A stretch of 64,000 nucleotides of DNA. It comes from Physcia stellaris. Its lineage: Eukaryota; Ascomycota; Lecanoromycetes; Caliciales; Physciaceae. The translations under genes were made by a program, and so were the position numbers. How positions within the stretch are numbered: the stretch's first letter is position 1; each line of letters starts with the position of its first letter. This document shows, in pieces, positions 1 through 41,750 of this stretch. Location of the stretch: the NCBI GenBank assembly GCA_018902385.1, contig JABSSW010000079.1, positions 1 through 64,000 on the forward strand, written 5' to 3'. The notes beneath the pieces are model-generated. The model made no database searches. It was not told where the DNA came from and saw nothing but the letters and a program-made list of their open reading frames with translations.

Positions 1-2260
1 TTTCGACATCGAACGAACGTTAAAATTGATACGTCGAAAATATTATTGATCGAATCAAAATTTTATCGAAATTTTTGAAATGCGATAACAAATCAAAAAA
101 TATTGTGAAACATGCGTCGTTTATAAACGAAACAAAATTGCACGACACAAATTATACGACGAATTTTTTTTTTTCGATTTTTGAATTTAAATGAATTGAT
201 TTTTTCATGAATTTCGTGACAAAACTTTTTTCAAATAAAACATGAAATGAAACGATTTACGATTCGATTTTAATGATTGTGAATCGTTTAACGAAAATGA
301 TTCATTACATATCAATAATTAAAACGATTTTCGCAAAAAATCTGATTGAAATTTTATTTCGCGAAATCATTCGATTTCACGATTTTTTTTCGTCAATCGT
401 TATCGACAAAAATTTCATTTTCACGTTCAAATACAACGATGCATTGTGTTACGTTTTGAAAATCAAACGTAAATTGTCAATCGTTTTTCATTTTTAAATC
501 GATGAACAAATCGAACGAATGAACAACGTCATAAAACAATTTTTTCGCGTTTTTGTCAATTTCGAACAAAATGATTGAATAAAATTGTTGTTTATGATCG
601 AATTCGTTTACAACAACAACAAACATGCATTCACAAATATTTTTCGTTCGAAATTATGTTTGAATATTCATTTCGCATGCTTTTTTTTGAAAAAACATAA
701 AACAAAAAAATTAAATTCAAATTCGGTAAAAAAACACGTTAAACATTTAATTGAATTATTTCGAATATTGAAAAACAATTTATTCATGACACAACAACAA
801 CAAACAATGTACAAAAACGAACGTACAAAATCAATGTCATACAACGTCGAAAGTTACGTGAATTTGAACGATAAAAACATCAAAACTAAACGAAACAAAA
901 ATTGAAATGAAAATTCTTTTGAATCATTTCAAATTTTAAAAATTATAAAAAATCAAATTTATCGTTTAAATTTATTCAAACGTTGACGTATTCACGACGT
1001 TTTTTCACGTTTTTTTAGAAAAATTCAATTTTAAAAGAGAGAAAAAACATACGTCACATTTTTTGAATTTTCGTATCAAATTGAAAATGTTCAATTCGAC
1101 GAAAACATGAAAATAAAAATCACGAAAAATTTTTATGAAATCGAAATTATTAAAAACAACAAAATTTTCAAAACAAATGAAATTTCAAACAAATTTTACA
1201 ACGAATTCGATTTTTATTATTTGATAAAATAAAAAAATTATAAAAACGCGATTTGAAAATTTGATCGTTTGTCAAACATTTTCGAAAAATTTTGTCACAA
1301 TTTCACAACGAAAATTCAAAAAAAATTTGATGTCAATAAAAAAACAAATTATCGAAAATCACGAAAAAATAAATTAAAATATTTATTGCATGTTAACACA
1401 TTTTCGTTTTCAAAATTTTGTGTGTTATTTATTGTCTAAAATTTACAACGCATGAAAAATTGAATTGTGTCAAAAACATTTTCAAAAATTGTTGTTCGAT
1501 TTAATCGAACGATAAATTGTTAAATAAAAATATAAAATAAAATAAAAAAAAATTCGAAATTTGAATATTAATGCGATCGCGATTAATGAACGTTTATCGC
1601 GTTTACACATTTTTTCATGATATCGATATTGATATTCGAAATAAAAAAATAAAAAAATAAAAAAATGTTCGAATTCAAAATTTTTTGTCAACAAATCAAT
1701 TGTCAATTATTATATCGAAAATTGTGAATTATACGAAATCAAACATTCGATCATGAAAACAACAAACAATTGATTTATCAAATTATATTTTTTTTTGAAT
1801 CATTCAAAAAAATGTTTTTTCAAATTTTTAACGCAGATTGATTATTGAATTCGAACAAAAATATTTCGAAATGCGAAAATCACGATCATAATGATTTTTC
1901 AAATCAATGCAAAATCAAAACAAACAAAACACGTCAAAACAAACAAAATACGTCAGAATTTTTGTTAACATGTTGATTTCAAAAAACTTCGATATTTAAA
2001 AAAACGTATATAAGAAATAAAATTCAAAATTTTCGAAAATGCGATTCGCATTTCGTCAAGCAATTCGATTATCGAAATTCGAATGATTTCGAAAAAAATC
2101 AATTTCAATCATTTTACAATTCGATCAACGATAAACTCAACAAACTTTTATTTTCAGTCGAAATCGATCGAATTCGTACGATTGAATAAATAGAATGCAA
2201 ATAAAAAGCAATTGCAAAACGTAATCTGTTTTGTAACGATTAATAAATCAATATATTACA
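1..2260 (+). mobile_element. Ty3/gypsy chromovirus-like fossil, 3' part
   Basis: The window opens inside the pol region of a decayed Ty3/gypsy element. The zinc-binding and core regions of an integrase are recognisable at about 60-900, including the family pattern around DRLTKM-like and EFVYNNNKHA-like stretches. A chromodomain-like stretch follows at about 1,110-1,320, which places it among the chromoviruses. A candidate 3' LTR runs from about 1,963 (starting TGTTAACATG) to 2,260 (ending ATTACA), with a TATA-like motif near 2,007. That LTR call is weak because its 5' partner lies outside the window. The element is broken in several places and heavily mutated. A stretch near 1,440-1,490 matches one near 38,095-38,150 in the other gypsy element, so the two may belong to related families. 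Confidence 0.7.
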
Positions 2261-4300
2261 TTTCAAATTATACATTTCTGATGTCAATAATTCATTAAAT
2301 TATATTATTTTTAGTACGAGTTTTACAAATGTCATTAATGATAAAAATCGATATAATATATTTAAAATTGTCAAATACAATTTGATGTTTTTTGATTAAA
2401 TAAAACATTTTTTTTTGTAATTTTGTGTTTTTTCACAAATAAAATAGTTTTTGTAAAATTTCGTGTTGAAACAATATTTGATCGTTTTTTAAACGATTAC
2501 GTCGTTAATTCATAATATTAACAAAATTTTGTGAAAAATATGTAAATATATCGTTGAAAAAAAAAACATTATTTTTGAACGACGAATTTTTGTTGACGAA
2601 AATATATTTTGTATTTTTCGAAAACGTGAATGATTGTAAATATGTCAATCATTGTAATTATTCAATGTAACAATCACGAAAAATTGTTTTATCGCATGCG
2701 ATATTTTCGATTTTTTTAAATTTTTCGAACGAAAACGTTGTTGATTCGTGAATCGTTTTTTGTTTAACGATATTGAATTTTCGTTGTCGTCATGATGATT
2801 TTGTTACAAACACGTCAATTTCAAATTTCAAATTTTCGATTCAAAAATGTTTGACGTTTTTGAATCGTTTGTTGACATTCGTGTCGATTGTAATTGTCAT
2901 GTTCACGATAAAAAACGAAAAATAATGAAAATAAACAAAAATAAAAAAAAACAAAATATACAAACAGATATTCATGAAAATCGATGTCGAATAACGAACG
3001 AAAACAAAATCAACGTTAAAATGTTAAATGACGAAAAAAAAAAAAAAACGTTCAAACATGAAATCAAAACAACGATTTTAACGCGTTTCGAACGCGTTTC
3101 ATTCGAATGTCAAAAAATTAATTTTATCGACGAATTATCGTCGTTTGTTCATTTCATAATTGAAATACAATTTGATTTTCAAATTGAATTGTCGTGTCGT
3201 CGAATCGATCGAATTTCGTTTATACATATTTATCGCAATATTGAATTTGATTCATATTGCAATCAATTTGAATTTCTATTTAAATATTGCGAATATTTTG
3301 TTTTGTTTGAAATTAAATTTGTCATTCGAAAATGCGTTCGTTTTTTTCTATTATCATTTTTTAATATTTCATTATTTTTCATGTCACGTTTTTTTCATTT
3401 TTATCGCGTTCGCATGCATATCATCAACTGATTGACGAAAAAATCGAAATGAAAAAATTTCGAAACGTGACGTCGTGAATGTGTAAAACGTTTGAAAACA
3501 AATTGTTGAACGAAAATCGAATATGACGAATGATGAATATTCGAATAATCGTTTTAAATTATTGATTTCAATCAAAATCGTCATCGAAATGCGATTTCTC
3601 AATGAATTGATCAATCGATTTGAATTGACATTTTTTCAATTGATTTTTTTTTTGAATAATGATATGTTTGTTTTCATCGAAAATTATTTGTTTATATATG
3701 TGTCGACGACAATTAAATTTTTCGTCAAAAAATCAAAATCGTAAATGATGTTGTATTGATTTCAATTCGCGAATGAATTAACATAATGAAAATTTTTTTT
3801 TTCGTCGACGAATATTACATGCGCATTGCGAATGATTTGTCGAAAATCGAAAAAACGATTTGAATTTATATTTCGCGAAATGACGATTTTTGACGAAAAA
3901 AATTGTTTTAATTCAAACATATCGTGCGTGTCGTTCATTGCATCATCTTTTCGTCATCGATATAATTGAACAAATGCGTTCGTGTATTGTAAAAACGTTT
4001 TTTCGATTGCGACGTTTCATATCAAATATCGTCAAAATTACTCGAAGTCGTGTTATGTTTCGATCGACATTTTTTTCGTTTCGCAAACAACGTTGTCATT
4101 TATTGAATCGTTTTAAATTCATACGTGATTTTTTCGTGTTATATTTTTTTCACGTCAATTGAATGCACAACGAATTAAATTTTTGATTAATTTTTCGTTA
4201 TCGTTGTCATTTTTATCATTTGACATTCAACAAACGATTGAATTATGATAAACGACGTAACAAAATTCGATTCAATTTGAATTTTGTTTTCGTCGAATGA
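2261..4300. other. AT-rich stretch, no recognised gene
   Basis: Several open frames occur on both strands here, the longest at 2,847-3,431 plus. None shows a recognisable domain and all have the Pro/Gly/Trp-free composition of the mutated block. The stretch is probably unrecognised transposon sequence, possibly the flanks or terminal parts of the Plavaka-like element that lies next to it. Confidence 0.5.
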
Positions 4301-4399
4301 CAATATTAATTTTTTTTGTAATGTCATTCATTTTTTTTCGATTTTTTCGCACGAATATCGTCAAAACATGAATGAATTTTGCAAAATCGTTATTAACAC

Positions 4400-7170
4400 G
4401 AACAACAAAATTTTTGATCGATCGTCATGATTTTAAACAAAATTCATGTCGTTTCATGAAAACAATGTCAATATAAACGTCAAAAAAATTGAACAATTGT
4501 ATTATTCGTGTTGATTGTGTCATTTTCGATTTCAATGCTTTTTTTGTTTTGATTTGTCGTCGATTATTTTTATACATTAATAAATCAATCATGACGATTA
4601 TTTTTGTTCGTCGTATATTATGATTCAATATTTGAATTTCATAATTTTCGTTTTTATTAATTCGAAAAAAGAATTTTTTCAGCAAAAATTTATGCGCAAT
4701 TTCGTCGTAACATATATCGTAATTTTGAACACTGTCATAAAAACGAATGAACTGCTCGTAATGTGTAATTGTATGTCATTTTGAAATGTTAAAATTATTT
4801 TTTGTCGAATTTGCGTCATCGTCGTTTTTGTTGAATTTATCGTTTGAAAACGTCGATTGTTTATATTTAACAAACACGTATTTGAATTTGTCGATACGAT
4901 ATATGATTTGTTTTATGTAATTCAAAATCGTTTCGTTATGTACGACGTATTTCGTCAACGTGACGAAATTCAAAATAATTCGAATATAATGAAACGCGTA
5001 CGATGCAATGTTGCGCAATAAAAAAATAACAATAAACATCAATTGTTTCATTATAATTTTTTGTTCGTTGTCGATTCATTGTTTGATTTGATTGAATTTT
5101 TTGAATTTTTTCAATTCGACGAAAAAAATAATTTGTTTGAATCGTTCATTTAATCGAAAAACAAAATTTTGTTTAACATTTTTATTTGATTCACGTTTTT
5201 TTTTTGATCGCGAAAACAACATCGACGATCAAAAATTTAAATCATTGAATCAATTTCATGATAATATTTTTGAAACAATCGTGAAACATATTTATCAACA
5301 TAATGACATGTATATTGATCATCGAATGATTTTAAACAAAATTGTTTTTTCGATGAACGTTCATTATATTTTTGACAATATTGTTATGTTCGTTTTTGTT
5401 TCAATTCGCGATTCGATTTTGATTTTGACGATGTATTTGTTTCGACGTGTATTCGTGCGTTTTAAAAAATCAAATTTTGATTATATGTTTTCGTTGATTC
5501 GAAAACATTTGACATATAAAACAATGTTGATTTTGTTTGACATCAATGATAAAACATTGTTCAAAATAATTCGTCATAATATTCGCAATAACAAAATGAC
5601 AACGTCGAATGTTCGCATTTGCGCATTTGATATTGAATTTCGTTTCGATCAAAATTTCGAACGTTGTCGAAATTCGTCAATGTATGTTCAAACAATTTGT
5701 TTATCGTCAATTCACGTTTTAACATGTGTCGAAACGTCACGTGATACAATTTTGAATTAATGTTTTGCGCGAATTCAATGTCGTTATTTGTTTTTTCGAT
5801 CATTGATATCAAATTTAATAACAACAAATCAAATCGTATTTGATTTTTGCGTGTTGCGCAATTGAAATTGTCAATAATCACGTACATTGATCAAAAATTT
5901 TGATTTTTTCGATGTGCGATTATCAACGTTTTGTTCGATGTTAACAACACGAAAATTATTGTAAATTTTTCGAATAAATTTTTTTGAATTGATTATCATC
6001 AATTTTTTGTATGCATTTCATTGTAAATTCGTTCGTTTTTCGAATTGCATATTCGTATCGAAACGTAAATCAAATCGTTTGCAAAAATTCGATAATCGAA
6101 AAAAAAACGTATTACGTTAATAATGTTTCGTGTGTATATGATGCATTTTATATTCGAAACATTTTTCATTTCGTTTTGAATATTTAAATGTTTCGATCGA
6201 AATGCATCGTTTGAAATATCGTGAAAAATTTTTTCATTTGTTTTTGTCATTTTTTTGCGTTTTTGTATGAAAAACGCTCGAAATTCGAATTTGTGTATAA
6301 ATTTTTCAAAAAAATATTCATTTGTTTTTTATTGATTTTGATTTTGATAAATCATTCGTTATAATCATAATTTTTTCGAAATTTGAAAAATTTGTAAATC
6401 GTGTTTTCATTGATTGAAATCAACAATTCATTGTCGATTTTATTTCGAATTTGATTTTTTTTTTCGACGACGTCATCGACGAAATTTTTCGTCAATTTCT
6501 CGATGATTTTCGTGTATGTTGTCGTAACAAACGAAAAAATTTGCGATATAATATCAAAAATAAAAAATTTGCAAATATTTTTCGTGTTGCTATTATCGTT
6601 TTTTTTTGAGTTTTTTTGTAATGTTTTAAATCAACGTAACACGAAATTAAAACTTGATAACATTGATTTAATACGTATGTTGAAAATTTTCGTATCGATA
6701 TTTGTTCGTGTTTTTTCATAAATTTTCATTCATATTTAAATTCGATGTAACGTCATTCAAATCGATTTCAAAATCGATCAATTTTTTCAACGATGAATTT
6801 TTATAATCATTCGATTTGTCGAATATCGATTGATTGACATTTTTTCGTGTATTTCAATGCGAAAGTTCGCTTGTCAAATTTTGATATATGTCGAATTCAT
6901 ATTTTTCTTTCAGACGAACATCAAGTTCAACGATTTTTTTTTTTTCATTACAGTGTGAAAAGTGACGCGATAAAATCGAATGATTTTCAAATATTTTTTT
7001 GCATTTGTTGCATATGATGTTAATCGACATATTAAAATATATTCGAAACAAATATGTCACGTCGCGATGAACAATTTGAATCAATTTTTTAACAAATGAT
7101 TTCGCGAACGCGTAAAATCGTGTCAATTTGAAATCAATTTGAATGTTGAAAATTTTCAACAAAATATTTT
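4400..7170 (-). mobile_element. Plavaka-like DNA transposon remnant
   Basis: Minus-strand fragments in colinear order resemble a Plavaka (CACTA/KDZ-related) transposase. An N-terminal zinc-finger-like motif (CNKC...H...C) lies at about 7,000-7,060. A stretch like the family's YPEQCL...G.K...CP.C segment lies at about 5,490-5,600. A segment rich in DKFKYVF-like residues lies at about 4,840-5,050. A C-terminal stretch containing FFFRINKNENYEIQILNHN lies at about 4,590-4,685. The coding region is spread over at least six separate frames with stop codons between them, so it is a pseudogene. Terminal inverted repeats were not found by eye. The long plus-strand frame at 5,092-5,760 is a shadow of this coding region. 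Confidence 0.6.
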
Positions 7171-9229
7171 AAAACAAACAAATTTGTTTTCGTATGTTCA
7201 ACGCGTGATGTTTTAAAATTAAAATTACAACATATTGACGCGATCGAATGAATGAATGATCATAATAAAATTGAACGAAAATAAAAACAATCACGATGAT
7301 TTCAAACAAAAAAAATGACGAATCAAAATAACAAATATAAAATAATTATAATGAGCAAATTATTGAATGTAAAAGAAATGAAAATTGAAAATTGATAAAA
7401 CAATAAAATGAAAAACAAATTGAAATGATATTTTGATTGACAAAAATGAAAAAAAATTTGAACGTCGCATAATGTATATATATGCAAATAAAAAATCAAT
7501 ATTTTAATGAAACGAATTTGATTGAATGATTTAACGATTAAAATTGTAAATAAACATTTTTCACGCAAAATTATTTGAGATTTCGAATTCGAATCGCGAT
7601 AATGACAGCAAAAATGAATTGAAAAATCATGATATTCAATTAAATCAATATTGATTGTAAATTTACAATCAATACAATACAAAAAAAAATTGAACGATGA
7701 AAAATTTTCAAAATAATTGCATTGATAATTTGAAATTATCGTTAACATATGAAATATAACAAACAACAAACATAATTTTTTTTATTGTTGTGACAACGTT
7801 GAAAACAAATATCGAACGCAACGCCAAAAAAAACGATTAAAATGTTGACAAAACAACGACGATTGACGATTGCACAAAAAACAAACAAAATAAAATCGTG
7901 ACGAAATGATGTACGAATCGAGAAAAAAATGTTAAAAACGTCGATCGAAAAAATAAAAACGATGTAATGATATTAACGAAACGAATAAAAAAAATCGATC
8001 AAATGTTTCGACAGACTTCTTGAAATAAATTGTAAAAAAAAACGCAACAAATCGCAAAATTGTTAATGATCAGAAAAAATTAATTGAATGTATTGATGTA
8101 AAAAATCATTCATTTTGTCGTTATCGAAAACGCGATCCCGTGAACACAGTTGAACGTGTGTGAAATTTACGACGTAATGAAAATTCAAAAACGCATTGAA
8201 TCGTGTCAAAAACACGTTTTTGAAATTCAAAATTTCGTATTACAATTTATCGTCACGATGTGAAAAAATATACAATCGTGTAATATCGTGAATGCAAAAC
8301 AGAAATTGAAAAAAAATAAATAAATGCAAAAAAAATTGCGAAAACGACGAATAAAAAATTAAACGAACGTTCGAAATTAAATTTTATCGATTTCGTAATA
8401 TCAAATTCACGATATGATGATGAACATTTAAATTCGAACGATTACGAAAAAAATTAATATGATCAAATCAACAACAAATTTTCGATTCAATACAACAAAT
8501 TCATATTATCGAATATGTTTCGAAATGTGTACGAGTGTTTGAAAAACGAATTTCAATTAATTTTTTTCGATTTTTCGAAATATCGATTACTGTTTAACAT
8601 CAATGAATTGCGATTTTTTATTTGCAATGCGATCGAAATTAAAAAAAAAAAATTGCATGTGTATCACGACAATAATCATTAAATTTCAAATGTTTCATGA
8701 ATTCGAACAAAAATTTATGAAACGAAAATTCTACATGTATGTTTATTGATTGATAAAGTCGATTATTTTCAACTAACGAAAAAAAATTGTGTATAATGTG
8801 ACATTTCATTCACATTTGCGTCTTTGTCGATTTACAGCGATTATTTAAATAAAATATGCAAATTTTTCAATTGATGAAATTCGACAATTGCTCGTTATTA
8901 TCATAGTTTGATATAAAGCATTTACGTAAATAAAACATTAAATATAAAATTGAATGTCAATTTCAAATACGAAAAACTTTATATCGAAACGAATAAAAAT
9001 GTCGATTTGTAACGAAAATAAATGACAATACGCAAAAAAATTACATGTTATTAACGTATTTCATATACATATTTCAAATTGATTTTTCAAAATGTCGAAA
9101 TTATTGCAAATTGATTATTCATTTTGATTTCGACAATCATTCGAATCGATAAAACATTATCAATGTTTTCAATGTAAATTTTTCAACGTCATAACATTGT
9201 CGCAATTAAATTTTTCAACATCGTCAAAA
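7171..9229. other. AT-rich stretch, no recognised gene
   Basis: No domain, repeat or structured RNA was recognised here. A 148-codon minus-strand frame at 7,323-7,769 is very rich in Ile, Phe, Leu and Tyr. It is most likely a chance frame in AT-rich DNA. Confidence 0.5.
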
Positions 9230-9610
9230 TGTTTCAAATTGATTTTTCAATAAACGAAACATTTCAAATTCGATTTTCGACAAAAATTCAATTTTTTTAT
9301 ATTGTTTTTTCGACATTCGCAATGTGTTTCAAGTTGATTTTTCAATAAACGAAACATTTCAAATTCGATTTTCGACAAAAATTCAATTTTTTTCATATTG
9401 TTTTTTCGACATTCGCAATGTGTTTCAAGTTGATTTTTCAATAAACGAAACATTTCAAATTCGATTTTCGACAAAAATTCAATTTTTTCATATTGTTTTT
9501 TCGACATTCGCAATGTGTTTCAAATTGATTTTTCAATAAACGAAACATTTCAAATTCGATTTTCGACAAAAATTCATTTGTTTCATTTTGTTTTTTCGAT
9601 ATTTTCAACA
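9230..9610. repeat. Tandem repeat, 95-96 bp unit, four copies
   Basis: Four near-identical units start at about 9,230, 9,325, 9,421 and 9,516. Each begins with TGTTTCAA(A/G)TTGATTTTTC and ends with TTTTTTCGACATTCGCAATG or a close variant. Degenerate units flank the array on both sides (about 9,045-9,230 and 9,610-9,720). Copies differ by very few bases despite the heavy mutation of the surroundings, so the array was probably amplified or homogenised after the mutation. The units are open in both directions, which produces repetitive chance reading frames. Confidence 0.9.
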
Positions 9611-9719
9611 TATTTCAAATTGATTTTTTAATAATCATGTGTTGCAAATTTTTTTCGAACATTATCGATATGTTTCAAATTGTATATTTCGCATCACGAA
9701 AATGTTTTAATACATGCGC

Positions 9720-11029
9720 AATTTGCATACATTGCGACATATTATCGAAACGACAATTCGTCGATTTTTTCATAATCGAAAATTTTTTCGTATTCGTGTT
9801 AAACATAATGAACAACAACATTCGAAAATGTTTTTTTGTTTGATTTTCAACGATTTGAAAAACAACATTGACAATTTTTTTGATGTTATGTTCAAAACAA
9901 CAATTTTATCGTCGCAATTTCGATTTTTTGATCGATCGTATATTTTCATATCGTTTTTTCGAAAATCGCAAATTCGTAATTCAATTTATGTTTTCAAATT
10001 TGTTCGCACAATCGACAATGACGTTGTTTATTGAAATAATTATTTTTTGTGTTGCGATCATAATCGTTTTCAAAATTTCGATTTCATTTTTCAAATTTTC
10101 GATTTTTGTTTTGATTCAAAAAATTCGCATTTCAAATTGCGCGTCGTTTTCGTACAAATTCAATGAATGATTGAACAAACATGAAAAAAAAATCGATTCG
10201 CGAAAATTTTCATATGCATCAAACGATATTGCGAAAAAATTGATGAATTTCGATCGACGAATCATTTGCGACGTGTTAATTATCAATATTCAAAAATGTA
10301 AAAACGTCAAATGTTTATTCGCGATAACAACGAACGTATTTTACATTTTTCAAAATCGCGAAATTGAAAAAACAAAAATATTTCGAAATCAAATGCATTT
10401 TTTATCGATATCATTTTATTCAAAATTCGAATCACGTTGTTGACGAAAAAAAATTTCGTTGAAAAAACAAAAAAAATCAAATCGACGCAAAAAAATTGTC
10501 GAAATTGCGTTAAAAAACATTCGACACAAAATTTTTTGACGATGAAATTGACGATATTGACGATAAACGACGTTTTTTGAAATGCATCAATCGATGATCG
10601 CGATTCAACATAAATGAAAATTTTCGCGACATTTCGCGAAATAAAAAATGTATTGATTGAATCAAAATTTTGAAAAAACAAACAAAATATCAAAAAATAA
10701 AAATCAAATTTATAACATGTTGTTCGTGAACGTATGTCGAATGAAAAATATATTGAAAATTGAAAATATTATGACAAATTTCACGATGTTGACGATGAAC
10801 AATGACGTGTTTGTTACGCGATTTTTTGACGTTGAATTAAATTTGTTTAATTCGTTTAACAAAATGTGATTCAAATTGAATTACAAAATGACGCATTTGA
10901 ATTTCAAACACGATTTTGATCAAACACATTTTTATTTCATTTTGTTGTTATTTTTTTGAACAAATTAACGATCGTTGTTTTTGATGTTTTTTTGTTTGAA
11001 TCAATTTTAAAATTTTTGTTATGATAATC
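9720..11029. other. AT-rich stretch, no recognised gene
   Basis: Overlapping frames of about 70-130 codons occur on both strands (for example 10,171-10,443 plus and 10,307-10,693 minus). No domain was recognised. This is probably decayed transposon sequence. Confidence 0.4.
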
Positions 11030-27867: not shown

Positions 27868-27975
27868 CTCTACAACTTTGACTACATAAACAAAAATCAT
27901 ATCAAGTTCTTGGTTGGTGTGCAAAGTGCGAAAAAGCTGCACCAAAACTTTGATGTTCTTCGCCAAGATTGGTCT
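27868..27975 (+). repeat. Direct repeat block 2 of the island element
   Basis: This is the partner of 25,976-26,095 and more diverged from it. It lies just inside the right edge of the island, so the element carries a sub-terminal direct repeat and not inverted termini. Confidence 0.6.
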
Positions 27976-30900
27976 AACCCAATAAGGAAGTAAACTTTTT
28001 GTAGAGGGAACGATAGATATTTTTTTATAGGTTGTGTTCTATAATAAACATAAATTAAAAATTTTAATAAATATTGATGCAATTGATTATGCGTTCATTG
28101 ATAAAAAAATCGTACAATTTGTATGCAACATGTTGAACATGAAATTCGTATTTTTATTAAAATCGAAATCATTGATTGAATTCGACAATCGTTAATTTTT
28201 TTTTTATAATTCACGCGATATATTTCAAATTGACGATAAAATTACATTTCGAATTGATCGTTTTTGCTAATCATTGATTTCGATAATCATTCGATAATTT
28301 TAAAAAAATCGTGAATGAACAAACATGAAATTATATTGAACATGATTTACGATAAATTGATTTTTAAATCGTTCAAATGCAATCATCACGACAACATATT
28401 CAATCAAACGATGCAAATTCGTCGTTTAAAAATTTTCAAATCAAATCGTCGATAAAATGTATTTAATTGACGTCGCGATACAAAATTATCGCAAAAAAAT
28501 AATACAAAACACATAACGACGATAAAATTTCGATATATCATTTTATCACGTTTCAAAATCAAATCATTATTTTTTGTTGTTGAAAACGAATTCGATATAT
28601 TCGATTTTGAATGTTTCGAATGTTTAATTCATTCAAAAATCGAAAACGACGACGAATCGTCAACAATCGAATCAAATAATTCAAAAATTGATATCACGAC
28701 GATTACGAAAACGACATTCGTCAAAAAAAAATTGAAAAATCAACGTAATAAACGATGAAAAACGAAAAAACAACAATCAAAATTTTCGTTATTTTCAAAG
28801 TTGAATTTTGACGATTCGATAAATATCGCAATAATTGATGCAATTTTTTTTTGTTTGTTGATTGATATCAAAAATCGAAAACAAAAAATTCAATGTTTTT
28901 CATTACGATCAATCAAATCGATTTCGCATTCAAAACATTACAAACGAATTTTGAATTGTTGAAAATTGTCGTTATAATCAAAAAAATTTTGAAACATAAA
29001 CAAATCAAATCGATATTTGAACGCATAATGAAAAAAATATCAAAATATTTTCATCATTTATCAAAAATATTCGATTTTCAAAAAATTATCAAATTATTTT
29101 TTCATAAATTATACGATCATAAAATCGAATTTTTGAACGATAACAATTTTTTATTTCGCAATCGAATGTATTTTTTATTCGAATTCAAATTTAAAAAATT
29201 CAAAAAATATTTGAAAAAAAAATTGCAAAAAAAAAATTCAAACGATATATGTTTCATCAATTTTATTTGCAATCAAATTTAATAATCAATTACGTTTGTG
29301 TGTGAATTATCGTCGATTCAATCATATCACGAAACGTAATCGATATTTTATTTTTTTGATTGAAAAATTTTGATCAAAATTCAAAATTGCAAATATTTGA
29401 TCAAATTGAATATTATATCAATTTTCAATAAATTTCGAATGAGTGAAAAAAATGAAAAACTTATCACGTTTGTCATTTTTATGAAATCGTACAAATATCG
29501 AATATTATTTTTGAATTAATTAACGATTTTGCAAGTTGACAACATTACATGAATGATTTTTGTTCAATTTTCTGAACGAATTTTGTCAAATTTATTTAAA
29601 TGACATATTTATTTACAACAAATTCAAAAAAAAAAAACATATCGTGCACGTTCGAGCGATATTGAAAAAATTCAAAAAAGTCGATTTACAAATAAATATT
29701 GAAAAATGCGAATTTTTCAAAAAAAAAATGATTTTTTTAAACGTTATATTTTCGATAAATGATTTTCGCATGAATTCAAAAAAAATACAAATCATAATTG
29801 ATTGAACACGTTTTATCAATTTCAAAAAAATACAAATTTTCGTGAATTTCGTTAATTTTTATCGACGTTTCATTCGTGATTTTTCGAAAAAAATTAAAAT
29901 TTTCATTCGAATGATCAAAAAATTCGTAAAATTCGAATGAATTACGAAAACAAAAAAAATTTTCAATTTATTCAAAAAAACGATGATCGAAATTTTTATA
30001 TTTCGTTATTACGATAAAATCAAACAAATCATTTTAAAAATCGATTTTTCAAATTACGTCAATGCAAAAATGCTATCGCAATACGATGACGAAAAAATTT
30101 TGCATTTCGTTGTTTTTTACAATCGAAACATGATTTCAATCGAATGCAATTACGAAATTTATAACAAAAAATTATTGATCATTATTCGTTGTTTGAAATA
30201 TTGACGTTCAAAATTCGAAAACATTGACGAATCGATTAAAATTTTCATCGATCACAAAAATTTGAAAATTTTCATAATTTCGAAAAAATTGATTTTTCGT
30301 CAAATTCGTTGAACAAAAATTTTATCGAAATTCAATATCGTCATTCAATTTCAATCAAAAATTCAAAACGTTAAAACAAACGTTTTGATTCGTATGTCAA
30401 ATTCACGATTCAAAAACGATAACGACGAACGATATCAATATAAAAAACAAATGTTATTCATTTCGAAACGATTCGAAATTCATGTTGTCGAATTTGACGA
30501 ATCAATTTACGAACGAATTTTCGTCGTCAACAAAACAAACGACGATTGCAAAACATATCGTGAAACGTTCAATCAAAATTTCATTTTTGTGAATGAAATC
30601 AATTTACGCGATTGTTAAAAAAAACGATATTTTATATTACAAAAATCGATTATGAATGTTCGTCGATGTTTTTTTGTTTGTTAATTTTTTTAAAAAAATT
30701 CATGAATTTTCAACGTCGAATTATTTTGAATTTAATCGCATGAAAAATTTTTTACGTCGTGATTATTATTGATTTAATATGCGCAAAATCGTTCGTCGAT
30801 ACGTACGTAATTGTCACGATTATTAACGAACGAAAATTTTCAAAAATCGCAAAAATGATTTATTCATTTTTTTGATTATATTTTTGCAACGATAAATCGA

Positions 30901-31773
30901 TATATCGATGAATTTCATTACGAAATTGTTTGACGTTCACGATCATAACGTCATTTGCACGATAATCGACAAATTTAACAAAAAACGTTATTATGCATTT
31001 TGCACAACAAAAAACGAAAACACGAATGTTGAAATCACAACGAAAATATTTATTCAATACGTTTTTCGTATTCACGATTTTTTTTTTTTATAACGTTTGA
31101 TCGAAATTTTCAATTCGTGTCGTTCGTATGACAAATTTTTTTGCAAAATTTTCGACATCAAATGTAAATTTTTCACGATTTTTCATTCAGAAATTGATGA
31201 TCAAATCGAAAAAATCAATCAAAATATCGAAAAACAATTGCGACAATATTGCAATTACATGCAAAACGATTGAAACGTTTGATTATTCATGATTGAATTT
31301 GCAAACAACAACGCGATTTTTGTATCAATTAAATTATCATCGTTTTTCGTCAACAAAATTTTCATTTTCGTATGAGTTTTTCATCAAATTTTATTTCGTA
31401 CGTTATTACAAAAAAACGATTGTTGATCGTCAAAACGAAAAATATCACAAACATTATGCAAAACATTTTCAATTACGTGCGAAATCACGTCGACGTAATT
31501 CAAAAACGCATGACAATTCAAATCAACAAATATCGCAAAATTGTGAAATACGTCGAAAAAAATTACGTTTTTTTGAATCGACGAAACATCAAAATCGCTA
31601 AATCATTTGACAAATTCGATGACAAAAAATTGAATTCGTTCAAAATGTTAAAACGTCGAAACAATTTTTATCAATTCGAATTATTTGAAACAATACGAAT
31701 TTACGATGTGTTTCATTGTTGATTTTTTCGCAAAAATTTTTGTAATTTTTTCGAAAATCAAATTAACGAATCA

Positions 31774-31969
31774 TGTTGAAAAATACGATGACAAAAAACT
31801 GAAATATAAACACGAATAGAATCAAAATTTCTGATTGATCAATTAAACGAAACGTGTCAAAATCGATTATTATTAAAAACATTTGCGCAATCAAATTGTA
31901 TTTATTTTTGTATGTAATTTCGATAATATTGCATGCAATGCAATGACAATCATTCATATTCGTTCAATA
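31774..31969 (+). repeat. 5' LTR of the Copia fossil
   Basis: This 196-bp sequence is matched base for base in length by 37,464-37,659. It is preceded by the target duplication AATCA. It contains the palindrome TTGCATGCAATGCAA near 31,929. Confidence 0.92.
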
Positions 31970-33729
31970 AATTATGAAATTCGAATTAACATAAATTTTT
32001 TGTGATTGTCAACGTCAATCGTTTGATCACGAAATCACGAAAATCAAACAATTGTAAGAAAAAAATTCATCGTTCGATCGCGTTAAAACAATAAAAAAAT
32101 TTACACGATTCGATCGACAATTTCACGAAAAAACACACGACAATAAAGAAAATTTACATTCGAATATATATTTACATATCACATTACGTATCAAATGAAC
32201 GATTTCGAATTCAACAAATTTAACGCGCGTCGAATTTGCGATATTTTTATTCGTCAAAATTGCGAAAAATGATTCAAATTAATGAAACAATAATTTATCG
32301 ACGAAAAAATTTGAATAATCGTCGATTCAAATTATGTGTCGAAATTGTTATCGAATAATTTTCGAAAATCAAAATGAAATATCGATTTGAATTTTGATAA
32401 TAAAAATATTGAAAAAAAATTCGACGCAAAAACACAATATCAATTTATCGAATGTATCGATAACGATAATCAAAAATTAATAACGAAATTGAAAATTGTT
32501 TGAAAAATTTGAAAAATTTTTGTTAACAAATACAAACAAAAATTTGTTACAATTGAACGACAATTATTGCAAAAATTCAACATTGAATTACAAAAAATTT
32601 TCAAACGTGATTATTGAAATCGTTTATATCGATATTATCAAAAAAATCGCAAAATTGCAAATATGCAATCAAACATGATAAATTTGTTCAAATCAAAACG
32701 TCGTTTTTAAACATTTTTAACATTTTTGTTTGTCGAATACGATGTTATTTCGTGATACAATCGACGCACAAAACAATTTCGATATCGATAAATTTATTCA
32801 AAAATTGCAAAAAAAAAACACAATTTATTGCAAACAAAATCGTCGAATCGACATTGATAATTAAAAACAATCGTCGTCAATTTTATCGCATATTTCAACG
32901 ACGATTTTTCAATTTCGACGAAAATTTTCGTCGTTTCAAAATTAAAACGAAAAAAACGAAATGTTTTTTTCGCGATGATTCACATCGAATCGCAAAATGT
33001 GATTTTTGAAAAAATTAAAAAATAAACGAAAAAACGAAAAATCAAAAAATTTTCAAACAAAAATAAAAAACACAAAACGTATAACGTCGTCGATTTTTTT
33101 TCGTTCAATAACAATTCAAATTTCGACATCGACATCGATTCAAACAACGAAAAACACATAAAAAAATCGTCGTTCTATTCAAGAAATTGATTAATAAATT
33201 TTTCAAATTCGTTTGAATTGCAAACATTGACGTTTCGTTTTTACATGATTGACGATTTTCGATTTTTTAATAAATTTTTCAAGTCGATTAAAAAACGCAC
33301 GATTAAAATCGAAAAAAAATTGTATTCAAATCAATGTGATTCAATGACGATACGCGTCAAAAACGATGAAAACACGTTGACGAAAATATTTTATGTATTT
33401 GATTTCGACGTCAATTTTCTATTCGACAAATATTTTATCAAAAAAATTTGATAAAAAATTTCAATGACGATAATTTGTTTATGCGCAATAAACAAAACGT
33501 TGAAATATTTCGAACATTCGTTCAAAAAAATGTTTATATAATAAACAAAATCACATCAAAATTTAAAAAATACGTATTGTTAACGAACAACACGATGTTT
33601 GCAATTAAATTTTTTAAAATTTTGTTTGTTTCATTTGCAATGTCAACAATCGTGAACTCGAACGAAATTTTGTTCGATGCAAATATTGATTTTCGAAATG
33701 ATATCGAAATCGATTTTCAATTATCGAAT

Positions 33730-33834
33730 GTTGATTCAAATATTGATTCAAATGTTGATTCAAATATTAATTCAAATGTTAATTCAAATATTGATTCAAA
33801 TGTTGATTCAAATATTGATTCAAATATTAATCAA
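33730..33834 (+). repeat. 12-bp repeat array in the Copia fossil
   Basis: About nine tandem units have the form AAT(G/A)TT(G/A)ATTCA. In the plus frame they read as Asn-Val/Ile-Asp/Asn-Ser repeats between the protease and integrase regions. It is a local expansion within the element. Confidence 0.85.
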
Positions 33835-36800
33835 AAAAAACGTGATTTATACGAATTATGATATCGACGTTTTGATCATATGAAATTTGCAAAATTTCGA
33901 AATTTGCACAAAATCACAATTTTACGCAAATCAATATTCATTGTTGAAAATCGCAACGATTCATGCAAAATATGTGCGATTACGAAAATAATTAATGCAC
34001 ATAATCGTCGTCTAGTCGAACGCAAAATTCATATATTGAAATTGATATCTATCGATATTTGTGAATTTTTATTCGCTTCAAGATTCGATTACGAATACTT
34101 TTTAGAAATCGTGAATAATCATTCTCGACGAACGTGAATTTTATTTCTTCGCAAACGAGTCGATCGATCAGAAATTTTTAACAAATAAAAATTGAAAGTG
34201 AAATTAGAAATTCAACGAAAATTACAAACAATACGTTGTGACAACGTCAAAAACTGAAATTTATATTCGATTTTTGATACGAATTTATCGACATTGTTTC
34301 ACAATACATCGTTTCGTATAATTTCATTCAAAATGACGTAATAGAATGTGTCATAAAAACGATCGAAAATCAAATTCGAACAATAATTCAAAATGCAAAG
34401 TTGTTTATAAAATTTTGATTTGAAACAAAAAAACAAATACATATGTTCGCAATCGTATGAACACGAAATCAATAATTGACGACAATTCAACAAATTTTAT
34501 TGAAATTTGAACAAATATCAAATCGTCAATAAATTACATACGCGTTTGAAAATGCAAATGTTATTCGTTCGTTAATATCAAATCATTGTTTAAAAAAAAA
34601 AAAAAAAAAAATTCGTCAATACAAAAAAATCAAACGTGTTTATGAATTATGACGAAAACATCACGATTCAATACAAAATATGAATTTTCGATCGTCGTGA
34701 TGTCATCAAACATCACAAAATAATGTTTTTTGAACGTGAAAAATGAAAAAACGAATCGTTGAATTTGTTCACGATTACAATAAACGAATTATTTGAAAAA
34801 CGATTTGTCGAAAAATCACGCAAAATAATTTTTGCATTTGCAATCGTTTCGATGACATCGACGTTTATATCAACATTTGTTGCATCAATTTTTGCGAAAT
34901 TTTCGATTTTTATTGCGTTTATGATTTCGAAAAAAAAAAAAAATTCAATCAATGCACATGAAAAAAAACGATAAATTTATCGATACATCAAATGAAAAAA
35001 ATAAAATCAACGAATTTATCGCGAAATCGACAATTCAAACGTGATAAATTAACATTTTTCACGAAATTTTCACGCATGATGCAACAATTTTTTTCACGTG
35101 ACAATTTTTAAACGTAAACAAAATATCACGAACGAAAAAAAACGAAATGAGCATCGCAACAAAATTGTACGCGTTATGATGATTTTTTAATCGAAAATTT
35201 TAATACATACGAACACGATGAATGAATTTTATTTGCAACAACAAAAAAAATAAATCGACAATTCGTTAAAAAATTAATCATATTTGTGTTCGAAAATTAT
35301 CAAAAAACTGTCAATGATTTCATTTGAAATAAATTTTGATTCGAAATTATTTAAATCGAATTGACGACGTTGATAATTAATGAAATTTGAAACGTCGTCG
35401 TTTCATCGAAAAACGTCAATATCGTCATTAATAAATGAATGTTCAAAGTTAAAATGCATATAAATGATACGTTGAACAAATTGAAAATCAAATTCGTTGC
35501 AAAAAATTTTTCGCAAATATATAAAATAAATTATACAAATATTTTTGTTTCAATTGTCAAATTCGATATTTTTCGTTTGTTTCTTGTCATCGTCGCGTTG
35601 AAAAATTTCGAATGTTATCAAATGAACGTTAACAATGTTTTCACGAAATCATTTCTAAAAAAAAAAATAATTTACATGAAATTGTCATTCGACGTGAATT
35701 TATTTTTCGAACAAACATTTCTAATTCGTCGAAATTTTTATGAATTGAAACAAACGACTAGAAATTGACACGAACGTTACGTAAAAAATTTACACAAATT
35801 GAATTTCGAACAGATTTCGATTCATTTTTGCATATTTCGTCATAAAAAACGAAAAATTATATTACTTTTTTACGTGAATGACATTTTTGTTGTCGTCAAA
35901 TTCAACGAACAAATCAATTGATTCAAAAATGAATTCAAAAAGATATTCAAAATCAAAAATCTGAAAAAAATGAAAAAAATTTTTGACATTAGAATCACTC
36001 GCGATCGTAAAAAACGAATTATTCGATTGAATCAAACTCATTATTTGAACGAAATATTGAATGAATTGCATATGAATATCGATAAACACGAACGCACGAA
36101 ATTATTCATGAACGATTACGATTCATTCAAATCAATTGAATCGAACGACGAACAAATTGATTCAAAAAATTATCAACACAAAATTGAAAAATTCATGTAT
36201 GTTGTTATACACATTCGTTCAAATATCGTTTTCGCATTAAAACGATTAAATCAATATTTCAGTGATTTTGCGAAACATCATGACAAAACAATGAAAATTT
36301 TGTTTCGTTACATTCGATCGATCATCGATTTAAATTTTGTATACGACTTGAAATTGAACAACAATGAAAATTTCAAAATCAAAATTTATTCGAATTTTGA
36401 TTACGCAATCGATAAATTGAACAAAAAATCGATTTTCGAATACGTTTACATGTTCGTTGAAAAATCAATATTATAAATAAATCGTAAACAAAAATCGATC
36501 GTTATTTCAATCATTGAAATCGAATATATGATTTTATCGACATGCGTTAAAAAAATTATGAATAACACAATTTTTTCGAAATTTGAATTTCATCAAATAT
36601 TTCGAAATCGAATTGAATTAAATAACAATCATTCAAAACGATAAACATGAAATTTGTTCATCAATGCAATTTTTGAAAAATAATCAAATCGTTAATTTGT
36701 TGATCAAAAACGCACATATTCACGAACGATCAAAACATATTGATGTTATTTATCACAATATCAAAAATTTGCATCAAAAAAATTTGATTCAATTGAATTA

Positions 36801-36934
36801 CGTTTCGAATGCAAACATGATAATCGATGATTTGATTAAATTATTATCAAAAAACAAATTCAAAAAATTCGTAAAACAATTGAAACTGAAAAAATCATAA
36901 ATCAATTAAATTTTTTTCAATAATTATAATTGTT

Positions 36935-37320
36935 TTTTTCATGTTAAAATGCTGACGATTCAATCGTACATATTTGACGAATCATAATCGAAAACAAAAA
37001 TTCGTTAATCGTATTCAAATTTGAATTGCATGATAATTCAAAATGATTTTTTTTTGAAATCGTTCGAATTTAATTTTTGATCAAAAAAATCAATGATTTT
37101 TTTCGTCAATAATCAAGAAAAATCGAATTTGATTGAAATCACGTCATTTTTTTCATTCTAAAACGATGATGATTCGATTGTACGAATTTGACAAATTATG
37201 ATTGAAAATAAAAATTCGTTAATTGTGTTCAAATTCGAATTGCATAATAATTCAAAATGATTTTTTCGAAATCGTTCGAGTTCGATTTTCTGATCAGAAA
37301 AATTCAGTGTTTTTTTATCA
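36935..37320 (+). repeat. Duplicated ~210-bp block in the Copia 3' region
   Basis: Bases ~36,935-37,110 and ~37,147-37,320 are diverged direct copies. Both share GA(C/T)GATTC(A/G)AT(C/T)GTAC, AAAAATTCGTTAAT and AATAATTCAAAATGATTTTTT or close variants. The block lies between the end of the RNase H region and the 3' LTR. Confidence 0.75.
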
Positions 37321-37463
37321 ATGAACGTAAAAATTGAAATTCAATGAAAATTACGTCGTTGCACGAATTAACATTCAATGAAAATTACAATCAATACAAA
37401 AATTGAAATTTAATAAAAATCGCATTCACGAATGCAATCAACATGATTGTCATCGAATGAAAA

Positions 37464-37659
37464 TGTTGAAAAATACGATGACAAAAAATTGAAATATAAA
37501 TACGAATAAAATCAAAATTTCTGATTAATCGATTAAACGAAACGTGTCAAAATCGATTATTATTAAAAACATTTGCGCAATCAAATTGTATTTATTTTTG
37601 TACGTAATTTCGATAATATTGCATGCAATGCAATGACAATTATTCACATTTATTCAATA
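37464..37659 (+). repeat. 3' LTR of the Copia fossil
   Basis: This is the partner of 31,774-31,969, followed directly by the target duplication AATCA at 37,660-37,664. Confidence 0.92.
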
Positions 37660-38307
37660 AATCATTCGATTTTGTCATAATTAACGAAAATTTCGAATGA
37701 AAAATGAACGATATTTTGAAATTTCGATATTATTACAATCGTTTTCAATATCGTGTCAATTGATCGAATTGATTACATAATCGAACGTGATATTACGTCG
37801 ATAACGATAAATTCGATAACGTTCGCGACGTGATAAAAAATTTTTATCGAAATCATTTCATCGTCGCAAATTCAAAATCGTTTAAATCAAATATTTTCGT
37901 CGTCGATATTCAAAATTTTTTTGCAAATCGTCGTCGTTTTCGAAAAAAAATCGTCGTTTTGATTTTTATTGAAATTACATTTGATTAAAATTTGAAAATT
38001 TTAAATTCGATACATTCATTTACGTTTTCATTTTTTCGATTTTTTTCGATTTTCAATTTTTATTATCGTTTCGATGTTGTTTACAATCAAAATTTACATC
38101 GCATAAAAAATTGAATCGTGTCAAAAACATTTTCAAAAATTGTTGTCAAATTTTATCGAACGTTGAAACGATAACAAAACATCAAAAAATAAAATGATAA
38201 TCGTGAAATTTTTGAATTTTGCAAACATTCAAATCAATCAACAAAATTTTCAAAATTTCGAAACAACAACGAATTGTCGAAACGACGTTCGCGAAAAAAA
38301 AAAATAA

Positions 38308-38531
38308 TGTTACGAACATGTTTGACAAATAGATTTGACAAATAAATAATTAATATGATATGTGATCGAACAACGAATTATGCTTTAATTTTACGTCGAA
38401 ATTAACGTGATTTGAAATTTGACGTCGTACATTGTTTGCAATTTCAACATTTTGTATTTATTTGTTTTTGCAAATTTATTGTTTTCGTTTGATTAATTAA
38501 TAATACGTTTATTCAAACACGATTCATGATA
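38308..38531 (+). repeat. 3' LTR of the gypsy fossil
   Basis: It starts with TGTTACGAACATG, ends with CATGATA, and is followed by the target duplication CGTAT at 38,532-38,536. It is the partner of 23,777-24,000. Confidence 0.88.
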
Positions 38532-38536
38532 CGTAT

Positions 38537-41500
38537 CAATATTTTGAAACATCGTCGTTGAATGCAAAATTTAATTCGAGAATTGATCATGACGAATTTG
38601 CAATTGTGAATATTCGTCAACGATTTTATCGTGTTTATCACGTGAAAATAAATCAATCAAATAATTGAATTTCGAGTTTAATCATTTTATTTCGACGATA
38701 ATATCGTGAAAAACAAACAACATGACGACGTTTCGAAACGACGTCATTGTTAAATCGTGTATCGTGTTTTTGATGAATTCAGAACAAACGATTTGATTAT
38801 CGCAATGAATGATAATTTTGTTGTTTTCGAAATGAAATAATTATTGACGCAAAACTTTCAACACGATTTGCATTTTTTTGACTTGAATATCGAACGTGCG
38901 ATTACGATAACGAATTGAATATCGTAAATTGAATTTTTCGAAAAATTTGTTTTGACGATTTCGAAGTCAGAAATTTTCTATGTTTCAATTGTTTGAAACA
39001 TTTGTTCAAATGTGATTCGAAAATTTAAACGAAATCGTTCGCAAAATTTTAAAGTCGTTTCATTGAAATAAAAACGTTTGTTATCATTGCAAATTCAAAC
39101 GCATTGTTTTGATAATTTTGCAAAATTTATTGACGTTTCGAATTCGATTTCGAACGATGTAAAATAAAATAAAAAAACGTTTCGAAACGACGATTCTCGT
39201 GCAAAAAAACAAAAAAATTCACGAAAAATCGATTTCGCGATACGTGAAAAACTTTTTGATGAAAATTTCGTTAACAAATTTCATTGTTTTCGTCAATTTT
39301 GCTGAAAGAAATTTGATTTTCATAGTTTCGCTGTCGAGTTCGATGTCAAGAAATTCGAATTTTGTGTCAAATTTCTTTTTTTTTTTCGTTTGTTTCGAAA
39401 TCGAAATTTTGACAAACATGTTGTCACATTTTTTTGAATGATTTCGAATTCGTGAAAAATTTCATGATGATCAGAAAGTCGTTCAAATAGTGAAAAATTA
39501 TGCGAAATTCGCAAATTTCGATCAAGATTCAATGCAACGTTTTAACAAATAAATCGAATAAAAAAGAACAATACGTAAATCGAACGATAAAAACAATTTC
39601 ATATAATACATTTTCATTTATTCGAAGTCGAATAATGAACGATTCAAAAAGTCATCAAAACGTGTTTGAATGCATTGACGAAATTTTTTTGAACATAACA
39701 ACATCACGTTTTTGAAATATGAATATCGCAATGATTTTATCGAACGTTACGTATTTCAAAATCTTTGCATTTTCAATGATGTTTTCATTGACTGAATCGT
39801 TTTTCGAATACGAAAAATCGTGAATACGTTTTCATTCGTCGTCGTGTTTGAATATCAGATTTAAAAATGAACAAATGTAATGTGAAAAAAAACATTTTTG
39901 ATATGCGTTGAACAATTCGCTGTTTGTTGAAATCGACAATGAATATATTTGAAATTTCGTTGATCGAACGATGATTGATAAACACGAAAAAAATTTTATT
40001 TTCGATATATTCGACGTTCGCGTTTCGTTTAATGATATCAAACAATTTCGAAACAAAATGTTGATCGAAATGTTTGAACAAATAAAATTTTCACGTTTTG
40101 ATTTTCAATGACATTTTGATTTCAAAATCGAAAAAACTGTCGAAAACGACGTTATATAAAAATTTTTTCGACGATCATTCGATTGACGTCGACATAATCA
40201 TTTTGAAAAAAAAATAAAAAAAAAATAAAAAGAAAACGTATCGATCAATTATTTGACGATGATAATATCGAAACATTCGATTTGTTATGATTTGATTGTT
40301 AACATTTGATACAAACATGTTTTCATTTGCAAAATTCAAATTCGTAACGATTGTTGTTATTGAACGCGTGACAAATTTCGTTATTAATTGTCAAACGATC
40401 GAATTTTTTTTTGATCGTGCGTGAAATGAAAAACGATTGCGAATTCGTCGATTTTTGATTGAATTCGATAACGACGATATTTTTAAATATTCATTCGATA
40501 ATATCATGTTTAATAATTCAATTGATTACGATATTTTGATCAATGCGTATAATTCGAATTAAATTTTTTTTATGTCAAATCAAAATCGATAATCACGTTT
40601 TGTAAATATATGTTTTCAAAATGCAAAAACGATATTGATTCATAACGTAATTTAATTCGTATCGCATGTTCGAATGAACGAAATCGAACACGATATTGCA
40701 ATACATTTTCAATGACGTCAACAAAAATGAAAAATTTTTGAAAATTTTTGCACGAAAATCGACAAAACACACTGAACGTTGATTAAAAGAAAAAAATTTC
40801 GAAAAATTTTTGAAATTTAACGTGTCGTTGTACACGTTTTTGAACAAACGCAACGACACGTTGAAAATTTTTTTTTCAATTTTCGAATATTCGAAATTGT
40901 TGTTAAACAAAAAATTCGTGCGAATTTTCGTCGTGAACGCAAAAATGAAAATTCAAAAATTCGATAAATTAAAATATGAATTGATCAAATCGTGCGTAAA
41001 AAACACGTTTTAAAAATAAAAATTTTGAAAATCGAACGCAAAAAGCACGACGAACAAAAAAATGAAAAAATGTAAAAAAAAAAAAACAACATACGTTGAA
41101 TAACGAAATTGATATTCAATTGTTTTTTTGTTTTTTTGATTTTCAATTGACGACGAAAATTAACATGATATTTTTTCAAATTTTGAATTTTTGTCGTTTT
41201 CGAACGTAATCGTCGAATTTAAAATTGATCGAATACGTCGTTGTCGTTTACGTCGATGAATTCGAAATCGTCGTAAATGTCGAAATTGTCGAAATTTTCG
41301 ATTTGATTTTCGAAATGTTCAAACGAAAAAAAAATCTCGCGACGAGAATTGACGAATTTTTGAAAAAACGAACATTTCAAAATGAAACGAAAACGTGTAT
41401 TTTTGTCAATTCGAATACGATTTTTTATTTCGAATGTGATTCGTTTGCGAACAATTTGTTTGAATTTGAATGCATCGTTGTCATTATTTTTTTTTACGAC

Positions 41501-41750
41501 AACGACATTGTTTTTGTTTGAAACGAAATTGAATTTGATGTTCATATTGCGACGACGAAAAAACAATGAAATCGAATTTTAATTATGTCAAACGAAATGT
41601 TACATCAAAAAATGTACGAAAATCGAAAAATTGAAATATGTTACATCAAAAATTGATGTAAAAATTTTTACAATTGATTTTTGCAAATATTTGCAAAAAA
41701 AAAAACGAAAAATGAGAAATGAAATGAAAAAAACAATGATTTTTTATTTA
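38537..41750. other. AT-rich stretch up to the gene-rich region, no recognised gene
   Basis: Short frames occur on both strands (for example 40,593-40,910 minus and the acidic frame 41,219-41,566 minus). No domain was recognised. CT and AG dinucleotides are more frequent near 38,930-39,010 and 39,300-39,540, so these patches are less mutated. The AT-rich composition fades out at about 41,750, roughly 300 bp before the first host gene. Confidence 0.5.

Follow-up and report, generated by a model that had tools for sequence, protein, structure and literature searches.

Transposons of Physcia stellaris carry C-to-T mutations before pyrimidines in a RIP-like pattern that nearly spares CpA

In repeat-induced point mutation (RIP) of Neurospora crassa the minor sequence contexts follow CpA in an order of preference, and the contexts of RIP were reportedly surveyed by Clutterbuck in 2011. 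Across 1,239 genomes, Badet and Croll describe RIP-like defences as sharing a preference for CpA, their k-mer screen being context-blind by design (PMC12543289). CpT is reported as predominant, with CpA second, in Magnaporthe and one Botrytis strain (PMC4352252), as equal or first in families of Colletotrichum, where families labelled as CpT still pass both usual indices (PMC6180176), and as co-dominant in Anisogramma (PMC10998396). Alignment counts also put CpT first in the Tad1 element of N. crassa (PMC2621366) and in the control fungi of another study (PMC7882544), and the RIPCAL program defines indices for CpC and CpT (PMC2621366). A CpG-type mutation of repeats is reported in Microbotryum, Tuber and, weakly, in rusts (PMC4352252). 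Here we describe a window of 64,000 nucleotides, positions 1 to 64,000 of contig JABSSW010000079.1 (C79:1-64000) in the Physcia stellaris assembly GCA_018902385.1, which contains two AT-rich blocks of mutated repeats, and compare it with the rest of that genome (43.97 Mb in 147 contigs).

The blocks are likely to consist of transposons that a RIP-like hypermutation, directed at repeats, has destroyed by changing C to T before a pyrimidine (CpY) on both strands. Related copies differ by changes of this direction and context, which fall on both strands and far outpace other substitutions; the pattern is concentrated in repeats, ends at a sharp edge and recurs at points sampled across the genome.

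Composition of the AT-rich blocks

Both blocks have lost CpY almost completely, on both strands. The plus strand of the first (positions 1-25,785; GC content 25.3%), the strand to which all dinucleotide counts of the blocks refer, holds 5 CC, 4 GG, 109 CT and 114 AG, beside 1622 CA, 1664 TG and 1497 CG; the strand-symmetric observed/expected ratios (O/E) are 0.01 for CC, 0.09 for CT, 1.35 for CA, 3.64 for CG and 0.40 for TA. The second block (28,050-41,750; GC 25.2%) follows the same rule, with no CC or GG in 13,701 bases, 47 CT, 56 AG, 876 CA, 766 TG and 857 CG, and O/E of 0.00 (CC), 0.08 (CT), 1.27 (CA), 3.93 (CG) and 0.41 (TA). Pooled over 39,486 bases, the blocks contain CC 5 and GG 4 (all in the first block), CT 156, AG 170, CA 2,498, TG 2,430 and CG 2,354. 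Two hundred mononucleotide shuffles of each block gave mean CpY/RpG counts, where R is a purine, of 3,257 (standard deviation 42) for the first block and 1,727 (standard deviation 31) for the second, against observed values of 232 and 103. The products of C-to-T change at CpY are in excess in both blocks (TpC/GpA O/E 1.43-1.46, TpT/ApA 1.34); TpA, which mutation at CpA would yield, shows no excess (0.40-0.41). In the control segment at 42,000-64,000 (GC 49.2%) all 16 dinucleotides lie between 0.72 and 1.14.

An initial annotation, made from the letters of the window, had described CpT, CpC, ApG and GpG as nearly erased and CpA, TpG and CpG as common, and the O/E values agree (CC 0.00-0.01, CT 0.08-0.09, CA 1.27-1.35, CG 3.6-3.9). 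Its statement that 29 of 30 plus-strand C in bases 1-240 precede a purine was reproduced on recounting, with 17 before G, 12 before A, one before T and none before C. Neither of the two observations that it held would speak against the idea is seen: CpA/TpG are not depleted (1.27-1.35), and the gene-rich half is without the skew (0.72-1.14). The span that it gave, 1-41,750, holds for both AT-rich blocks and fails for a 2.26-kb island inside it, at 25,786-28,049, which is unmutated.

The standard RIP indices do not register these blocks, as had been predicted in the same annotation. TpA/ApT is 0.40-0.42 and (CpA+TpG)/(ApC+GpT) is 1.36-1.43, and the usual thresholds, both of which are required, are passed by none of the 75 one-kb block windows and by none of 52 other windows. 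No one-kb block window exceeds 0.17 in the ratio of CpY/RpG to CpR/YpG, which is 0.89-1.26 in the 43 gene-rich windows. Canonical RIP at CpA was rejected on these zero calls, on the TpA ratio of 0.40-0.41 and on the copy comparisons given below (CpA 730/9610 vs CpC 3996/4147). Decay of the CpG type, resembling methylation induced premeiotically (MIP), was rejected because CpG is the best-kept context of all, with O/E of 3.64 and 3.93.

The right edge of the mutated DNA is sharp and falls at 41,701-41,850. Counted in bins of 150 bp, CpY+RpG is 0-2 in the six bins from 40,801 to 41,700, then 16, then 26, and 33-45 from 42,001 onwards. AT-rich blocks with sharp edges could, taken alone, suggest an inherent composition, such as that of centromere- or satellite-like AT-rich DNA, with no directed mutation. 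The less-mutated relatives of the transposon copies in the blocks have ordinary composition and differ from them mainly by C-to-T change at CpY, which makes up 89-95% of substitutions in four pairs; these copy comparisons rule the explanation out for practical purposes.

Direction, context and strand of mutation in transposon copies

A search of the genome for copia reverse transcriptase returned 137 matches, four of them without stops, and 30 copia loci of about 3.7 kb each were fetched. Twenty-six belong to four families with a less-mutated member, three form an unmutated trio (L011, L012 and L023) and one, L014, stands alone and was left out. The less-mutated member of each family was taken as its reference, so that four fetched loci were compared with 22 fetched copies and the window's own in 23 pairs; pairs from one family, having a reference in common, are not independent. 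The window's own copy is a degenerate Ty1/copia retrotransposon on the plus strand at 33,887-37,571, with a PF07727 match at 35,379-36,074 and four in-frame TGA. Over the 23 pairs, C has become T at 3996 of 4147 CpC (96%) and 5576 of 6831 CpT (82%), and at 730 of 9610 CpA (8%) and 280 of 7908 CpG (4%). In the pair L009 to L015, 440 of the 461 substitutions are C to T at CpY, six are C to T at CpR and 15 are of other kinds. Within the unmutated trio, each of the four contexts has 13-20 C/T differences.

The base immediately 3' of the mutated C sets the context. The second 3' base has little effect in the 23 pairs (CTA, CTC, CTG and CTT 0.80-0.84; CCA, CCG and CCT 0.97-0.98; CCC 0.89) and was dismissed as a determinant on the uniform values of the four CpT triplets. 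A 5' context was likewise dismissed, the rate within CpC and CpT barely varying with the preceding base where counts are not tiny. This bears on the possibility of a deaminase that acts on DNA cytosines in the manner of APOBEC and is recruited to repeats without a methyltransferase. Such an enzyme would account for hundreds of C-to-T changes per copy with few others, and we know of no assignment of the deaminating step of RIP itself. APOBEC-type enzymes, however, read the -1 base, whereas the mutation here depends on the +1 base and hardly at all on the -1 base, and we regard a deaminase of this kind as improbable. A search of the genome with PF00383, the deaminase family that was covered, gave 8 exon-level matches.

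The island at 25,786-28,049 (GC 44.9%, dinucleotide O/E 0.59-1.19) is an unmutated multi-copy element lying in the mutated DNA. It has 27 other near full-length relatives in the genome, at 70-96% identity, and of the six that were fetched three are not hypermutated (L038, L039 and L043) and three are CpY-hypermutated (L040, L041 and L042). Between the island and L038 or L039 the differences show little context bias. From the island to L040, C has become T at CpC in 200/210, at CpT in 141/265, at CpA in 7/315 and at CpG in 3/222, while T has become C in 3/1243; the 372 substitutions comprise 341 C to T at CpY, 10 C to T at CpR and 21 others. As in RIP, C-to-T or G-to-A transitions prevail, with 351 of 372 in this pair and 446 of 461 from L009 to L015. 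The comparison with L042, which is more diverged, is less clean (CpC 167/195, CpT 162/248, CpA 30/302, CpG 33/207). L043, with an ordinary GC of 42.7%, differs from the island by a small excess at CpT (23/240 vs CpA 9/292) and was perhaps lightly hit.

Both strands of L040 are hit alike, and in L041 the CpC conversion on the two strands of one stretch is 93/93 and 109/111. The proposal of C-to-T mutation at CpY on both strands, made in the initial annotation, is thus borne out by the comparison of copies; the putative enzyme that it named was a methyltransferase or a deaminase. The same figures bear on an artefact of sequencing or consensus, in which modified C would be read as T in an assembly of single-molecule reads. 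Our analysis rests on the assembly consensus, and the errors that modified bases cause in single-molecule sequencing are motif-specific, which speaks for it. Reads of the opposite strand should, however, outvote such errors, and L041 is converted on both; further, the sequence is normal in closely related intact copies of that element, and conversion is graded between copies and one-sided in one of them (L009). An artefact is very improbable.

The effect on coding capacity follows from the context. A single hit under the CpY rule can reach a stop through the tryptophan codon alone, and stops would arise mainly at TGG. L008 has an open frame of 571 codons with 13 TGG, and in three mutated relatives all 39 of 39 have become stops (36 TGA, 3 TAA); in this comparison, which covers one family, stops arose from CAA/CAG in 3 of 66 cases and from CGA in none of 18. 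Among the 30 best copia matches the in-frame stops are 108 TGA, 13 TAA and 2 TAG. A reassigned stop codon was considered for the abundance of TGA and ruled out in the family tested, where those codons are TGG in the unmutated relative.

CpC is lost before CpT. The O/E values of CpC and CpT are 0.11 and 0.71 in L020, 0.01 and 0.48 in L036, and 0.00-0.01 and 0.08-0.09 in the window. Expressed as the negative logarithm of the surviving share, conversion in L040 is about 3.0 (CpC), 0.76 (CpT), 0.02 (CpA) and 0.01 (CpG), which makes CpC about 4 times as fast as CpT in this copy; in other pairs the factor is nearer 2-3. L009, the least mutated of its family, retains CC 229 vs GG 73, evenly along its 3.7 kb, with CT 223 and AG 206. 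The untouched contexts of its plus strand are skewed too (CA 339, TG 200); the unmutated L011, L012 and L023 have the same CA/TG skew and keep CC 189-196 and GG 177-200, and because of this we take the loss of GG in L009 to be one-sided. This is better matched by what one one-sided round would leave than by scattered decay.

These observations bear most on the chief rival, a mutation coupled to heterochromatin methylation, in which a DIM-2-like enzyme would place 5-methylcytosine at CpY, deamination would follow, and the process would be mitotic and not premeiotic. The genome has a DIM-2-like gene, DIM-2 of N. crassa is reported to prefer CpT (PMC13297926, PMC8016269), and Dim2 of Zymoseptoria tritici is reported to drive a mitotic C-to-T mutator, at CpA (PMC8016269). 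Nevertheless, one-sided loss along the whole of L009 is better explained by a directed round than by scattered deamination, a very high rate would be needed to give hundreds of CpY hits beside 15-57 other substitutions, and the first context lost is CpC, not CpT. We consider this explanation unlikely.

Recurrence, candidate enzymes and neighbouring sequences

Forty points of 1.5 kb, chosen at round-number positions before reading, were sampled over the genome. GC is below 0.40 (0.23-0.34) at six of them, and all six are CpY-depleted, extending to the genome what the initial annotation had found in the window. The CpY index is 0.01-0.05 in four (L048, L061, L069 and L081), 0.28 and 0.36 in two that are partly depleted (L067 and L077), and 0.86-1.50 at the other 34; none of the 40 points passes both canonical RIP thresholds. 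The affected share of the genome may be about one seventh (6/40, with a wide interval). As in RIP, mutation is concentrated in repeated DNA and the adjoining genes are spared, as seen in the relatives, in the edge at 41,701-41,850 and in the 34 of 40 points that are ordinary.

A PF00145 profile search of the genome found three cytosine methyltransferase genes, of the two types that the initial annotation had proposed looking for: two are RID/Masc1-like and one is DIM-2-like, labels that rest on the description in PMC4352252. The RID/Masc1-like genes lie at C6:789500-796000 (L005; 512 aa) and C5:496000-505000 (L007; 934 aa, with a long extra N-terminal part), both lengths resting on our own splicing. 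With introns removed, both have full frames through the last motif, and they share 40% identity over 307 residues. Between them they have EET and EQT where the DIM-2-like protein has ENV, a replacement that we take to mark the RID/Masc1 class. The genome thus holds, by sequence likeness, the class of methyltransferase expected for RIP. The third gene looks DIM-2-like, with an open frame of 1118 codons, a PF25423 match and a weak BAH match. Searches of PDB with the RID-like proteins returned DNMT1, Dnmt2-type and bacterial methyltransferases, and profile searches of the genome gave one alpha-box mating-type match and nine HMG-box matches. For RID itself, the table of a review gives catalysis in vitro as not detected.

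The searched parts of the blocks (1-19,000 in the first, 34,500-37,500 in the second) are mostly repeated DNA. A mutated family at 1-2,327 has 34 near full-length relatives elsewhere in the genome at 90-95% identity, among 46 matches listed by a search that scores the best candidates, from which its own place is absent. The mutated repeat at 2,328-9,405 has a 7-kb relative at C40:92313-99393 with 95% identity and a partial relative on C84 (query 2,564-5,506). With their own places included, queries of 10,001-19,000 and 34,500-37,500 gave 74 and 43 genome matches, respectively. Another mutated family, at 12,243-14,333, includes the 500-bp bins richest in surviving CpY and has about 0.5 kb at one end in common with the element at 25,786-28,049, as seen from genome places that matched both queries. 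The two elements, with this common end, are perhaps of a rolling-circle type with different inner genes; the island begins with a short palindrome, and a run of 12-bp repeats lies at 26,467-26,562 within its open frame of 452 aa.

The gene-rich segment at 42,000-64,000 has Pfam matches to a fatty acid hydroxylase, an FAD oxidoreductase, PQ-loop, NACHT, WD40, cupin and the major facilitator superfamily (MFS). The NACHT, WD40, fatty acid hydroxylase, MFS and PQ-loop genes, taken with the methyltransferase set and the alpha-box match, suggest a filamentous ascomycete. The NACHT and WD40 open frames adjoin at 53,462-57,285 and are probably a single gene, NOD-like receptor (NLR)-like, split by introns or damage. 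An open frame of 374 aa at 58,198-59,322 has a hydrophobic N-terminal start and many copies of the His-rich motif LPTHHHQLPP.

Interpretation and relation to known systems

In the repeat-directed hypermutation that we favour, CpC would be converted fastest and CpT about 2-4 times more slowly, with CpA and CpG nearly spared, and rounds would be repeated on both strands until hardly any CpY is left. The process would act in the sexual cycle, as RIP of Neurospora does, and the changed specificity for the +1 base would be carried by one or both of the RID/Masc1-like cytosine methyltransferases. The two RID/Masc1-like genes, the DIM-2-like gene and the alpha-box match count in favour of such a process. 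The enzyme is likely to be a methyltransferase of the RID class whose rule has changed, and the divergence of the two RID-like enzymes makes a shift of specificity in one of them plausible.

Several observations weigh against this interpretation. CpA, the usual target of RIP, is nearly spared, and it is not immune either, since its conversion reaches 15% in the window copy at 33,887-37,571 and 20% in L037, the most saturated copies. T-to-C differences between copia references and copies amount to 0.4-5.3%, so that the references are not the ancestors. Both the copia trio (L011, L012 and L023) and the island family (L038, L039 and L043) are multi-copy yet not hypermutated, and unhypermutated copies at 92-97% identity exist in L038 and L039 and in the trio; not every repeat is hit, for which recent copies or rare sex may be the reason. 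Also, 9,406-11,136 and a few shorter stretches had no relative in the genome copy search of 1-19,000.

Two of these cases have features of their own. The higher CpA conversion in L037 and the window copy could mean that CpA is a weak second target, or that these copies have aged in the ordinary way. The trio, at 95-97% identity, has frames open over 1257-1624 codons, together with numerous relatives at 69-79% identity; either it escaped or it is recent.

With more reserve, we lean towards a wider proposal: that the rule inverts the classical one, CpC going first and C before a purine being nearly left alone; that it is set by a RID/Masc1-class enzyme, perhaps one of a pair of diverged paralogues, whose +1 specificity has changed; and that genes would be killed almost solely through tryptophan codons. 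If the inverse rule is true, surveys based on CpA indices count such genomes as RIP-free. Since the usual indices score zero here, reports that RIP is absent need to be checked again where they depend on such indices. With CpY as its target, this genome clearly departs from the shared preference for CpA. The determinant of the RID target has so far had no easy handle, and two diverged RID-like genes together with an inverted rule would offer a natural variant of specificity. For genes near repeats, the predicted outcome is stops mainly at tryptophan (TGG to TGA), with CAA, CAG and CGA spared.

The initial annotation knew of no description of this context, which is compatible with the portions of the open-licence literature covered here: RIP rich in CpT is reported there, and we found no genome with mutation at both CpC and CpT and a spared CpA. 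A high rate at CpT is thus already known, and the element not found in those sources is the lead of CpC with CpA nearly spared.

Among the more distant systems, the CpG-type mutation of Microbotryum, Tuber and rusts has a C-to-T bias in transposons, as here, and differs in its target, CpG being the best preserved context in our blocks (O/E 3.6-3.9). Rhizoctonia solani AG8 (PMC4014442) has a C-to-T bias genome-wide, and in its table the changes at CpC show the closest spacing among the four contexts; unlike our case, it is a basidiomycete with CpG-biased hypermutation, and the table counts single-nucleotide polymorphisms, not repeat decay. The mitotic Dim2 mutator of Z. tritici (PMC8016269) shares a methyltransferase-linked C-to-T change in transposons, at CpA there, whereas here the target is CpY and a lightly mutated copy shows one-sided loss. 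Canonical RIP by RID of N. crassa is alike in converting C to T on both strands of repeats, in its AT-rich blocks and in the presence of RID/Masc1-like and DIM-2-like genes, but it prefers CpA (PMC8016269), whereas here CpC exceeds CpT, CpA and CpG are nearly spared and TpA is depleted. The nearest system is RIP with a CpT signature, in which CpT is a main target and the fungi are reported to have a RID/Masc1 gene (Botrytis, Sclerotinia and Magnaporthe, PMC4352252; Colletotrichum, PMC6180176; Anisogramma, PMC10998396). CpA is also hit in the available accounts of those fungi, whereas in P. stellaris the lead is with CpC, CpA is almost spared and the blocks go unregistered by the indices: of the pairing of CpT with CpA that defines the signature, CpT is strongly hit (5576/6831), CpA is not (730/9610), and CpC stands above both.

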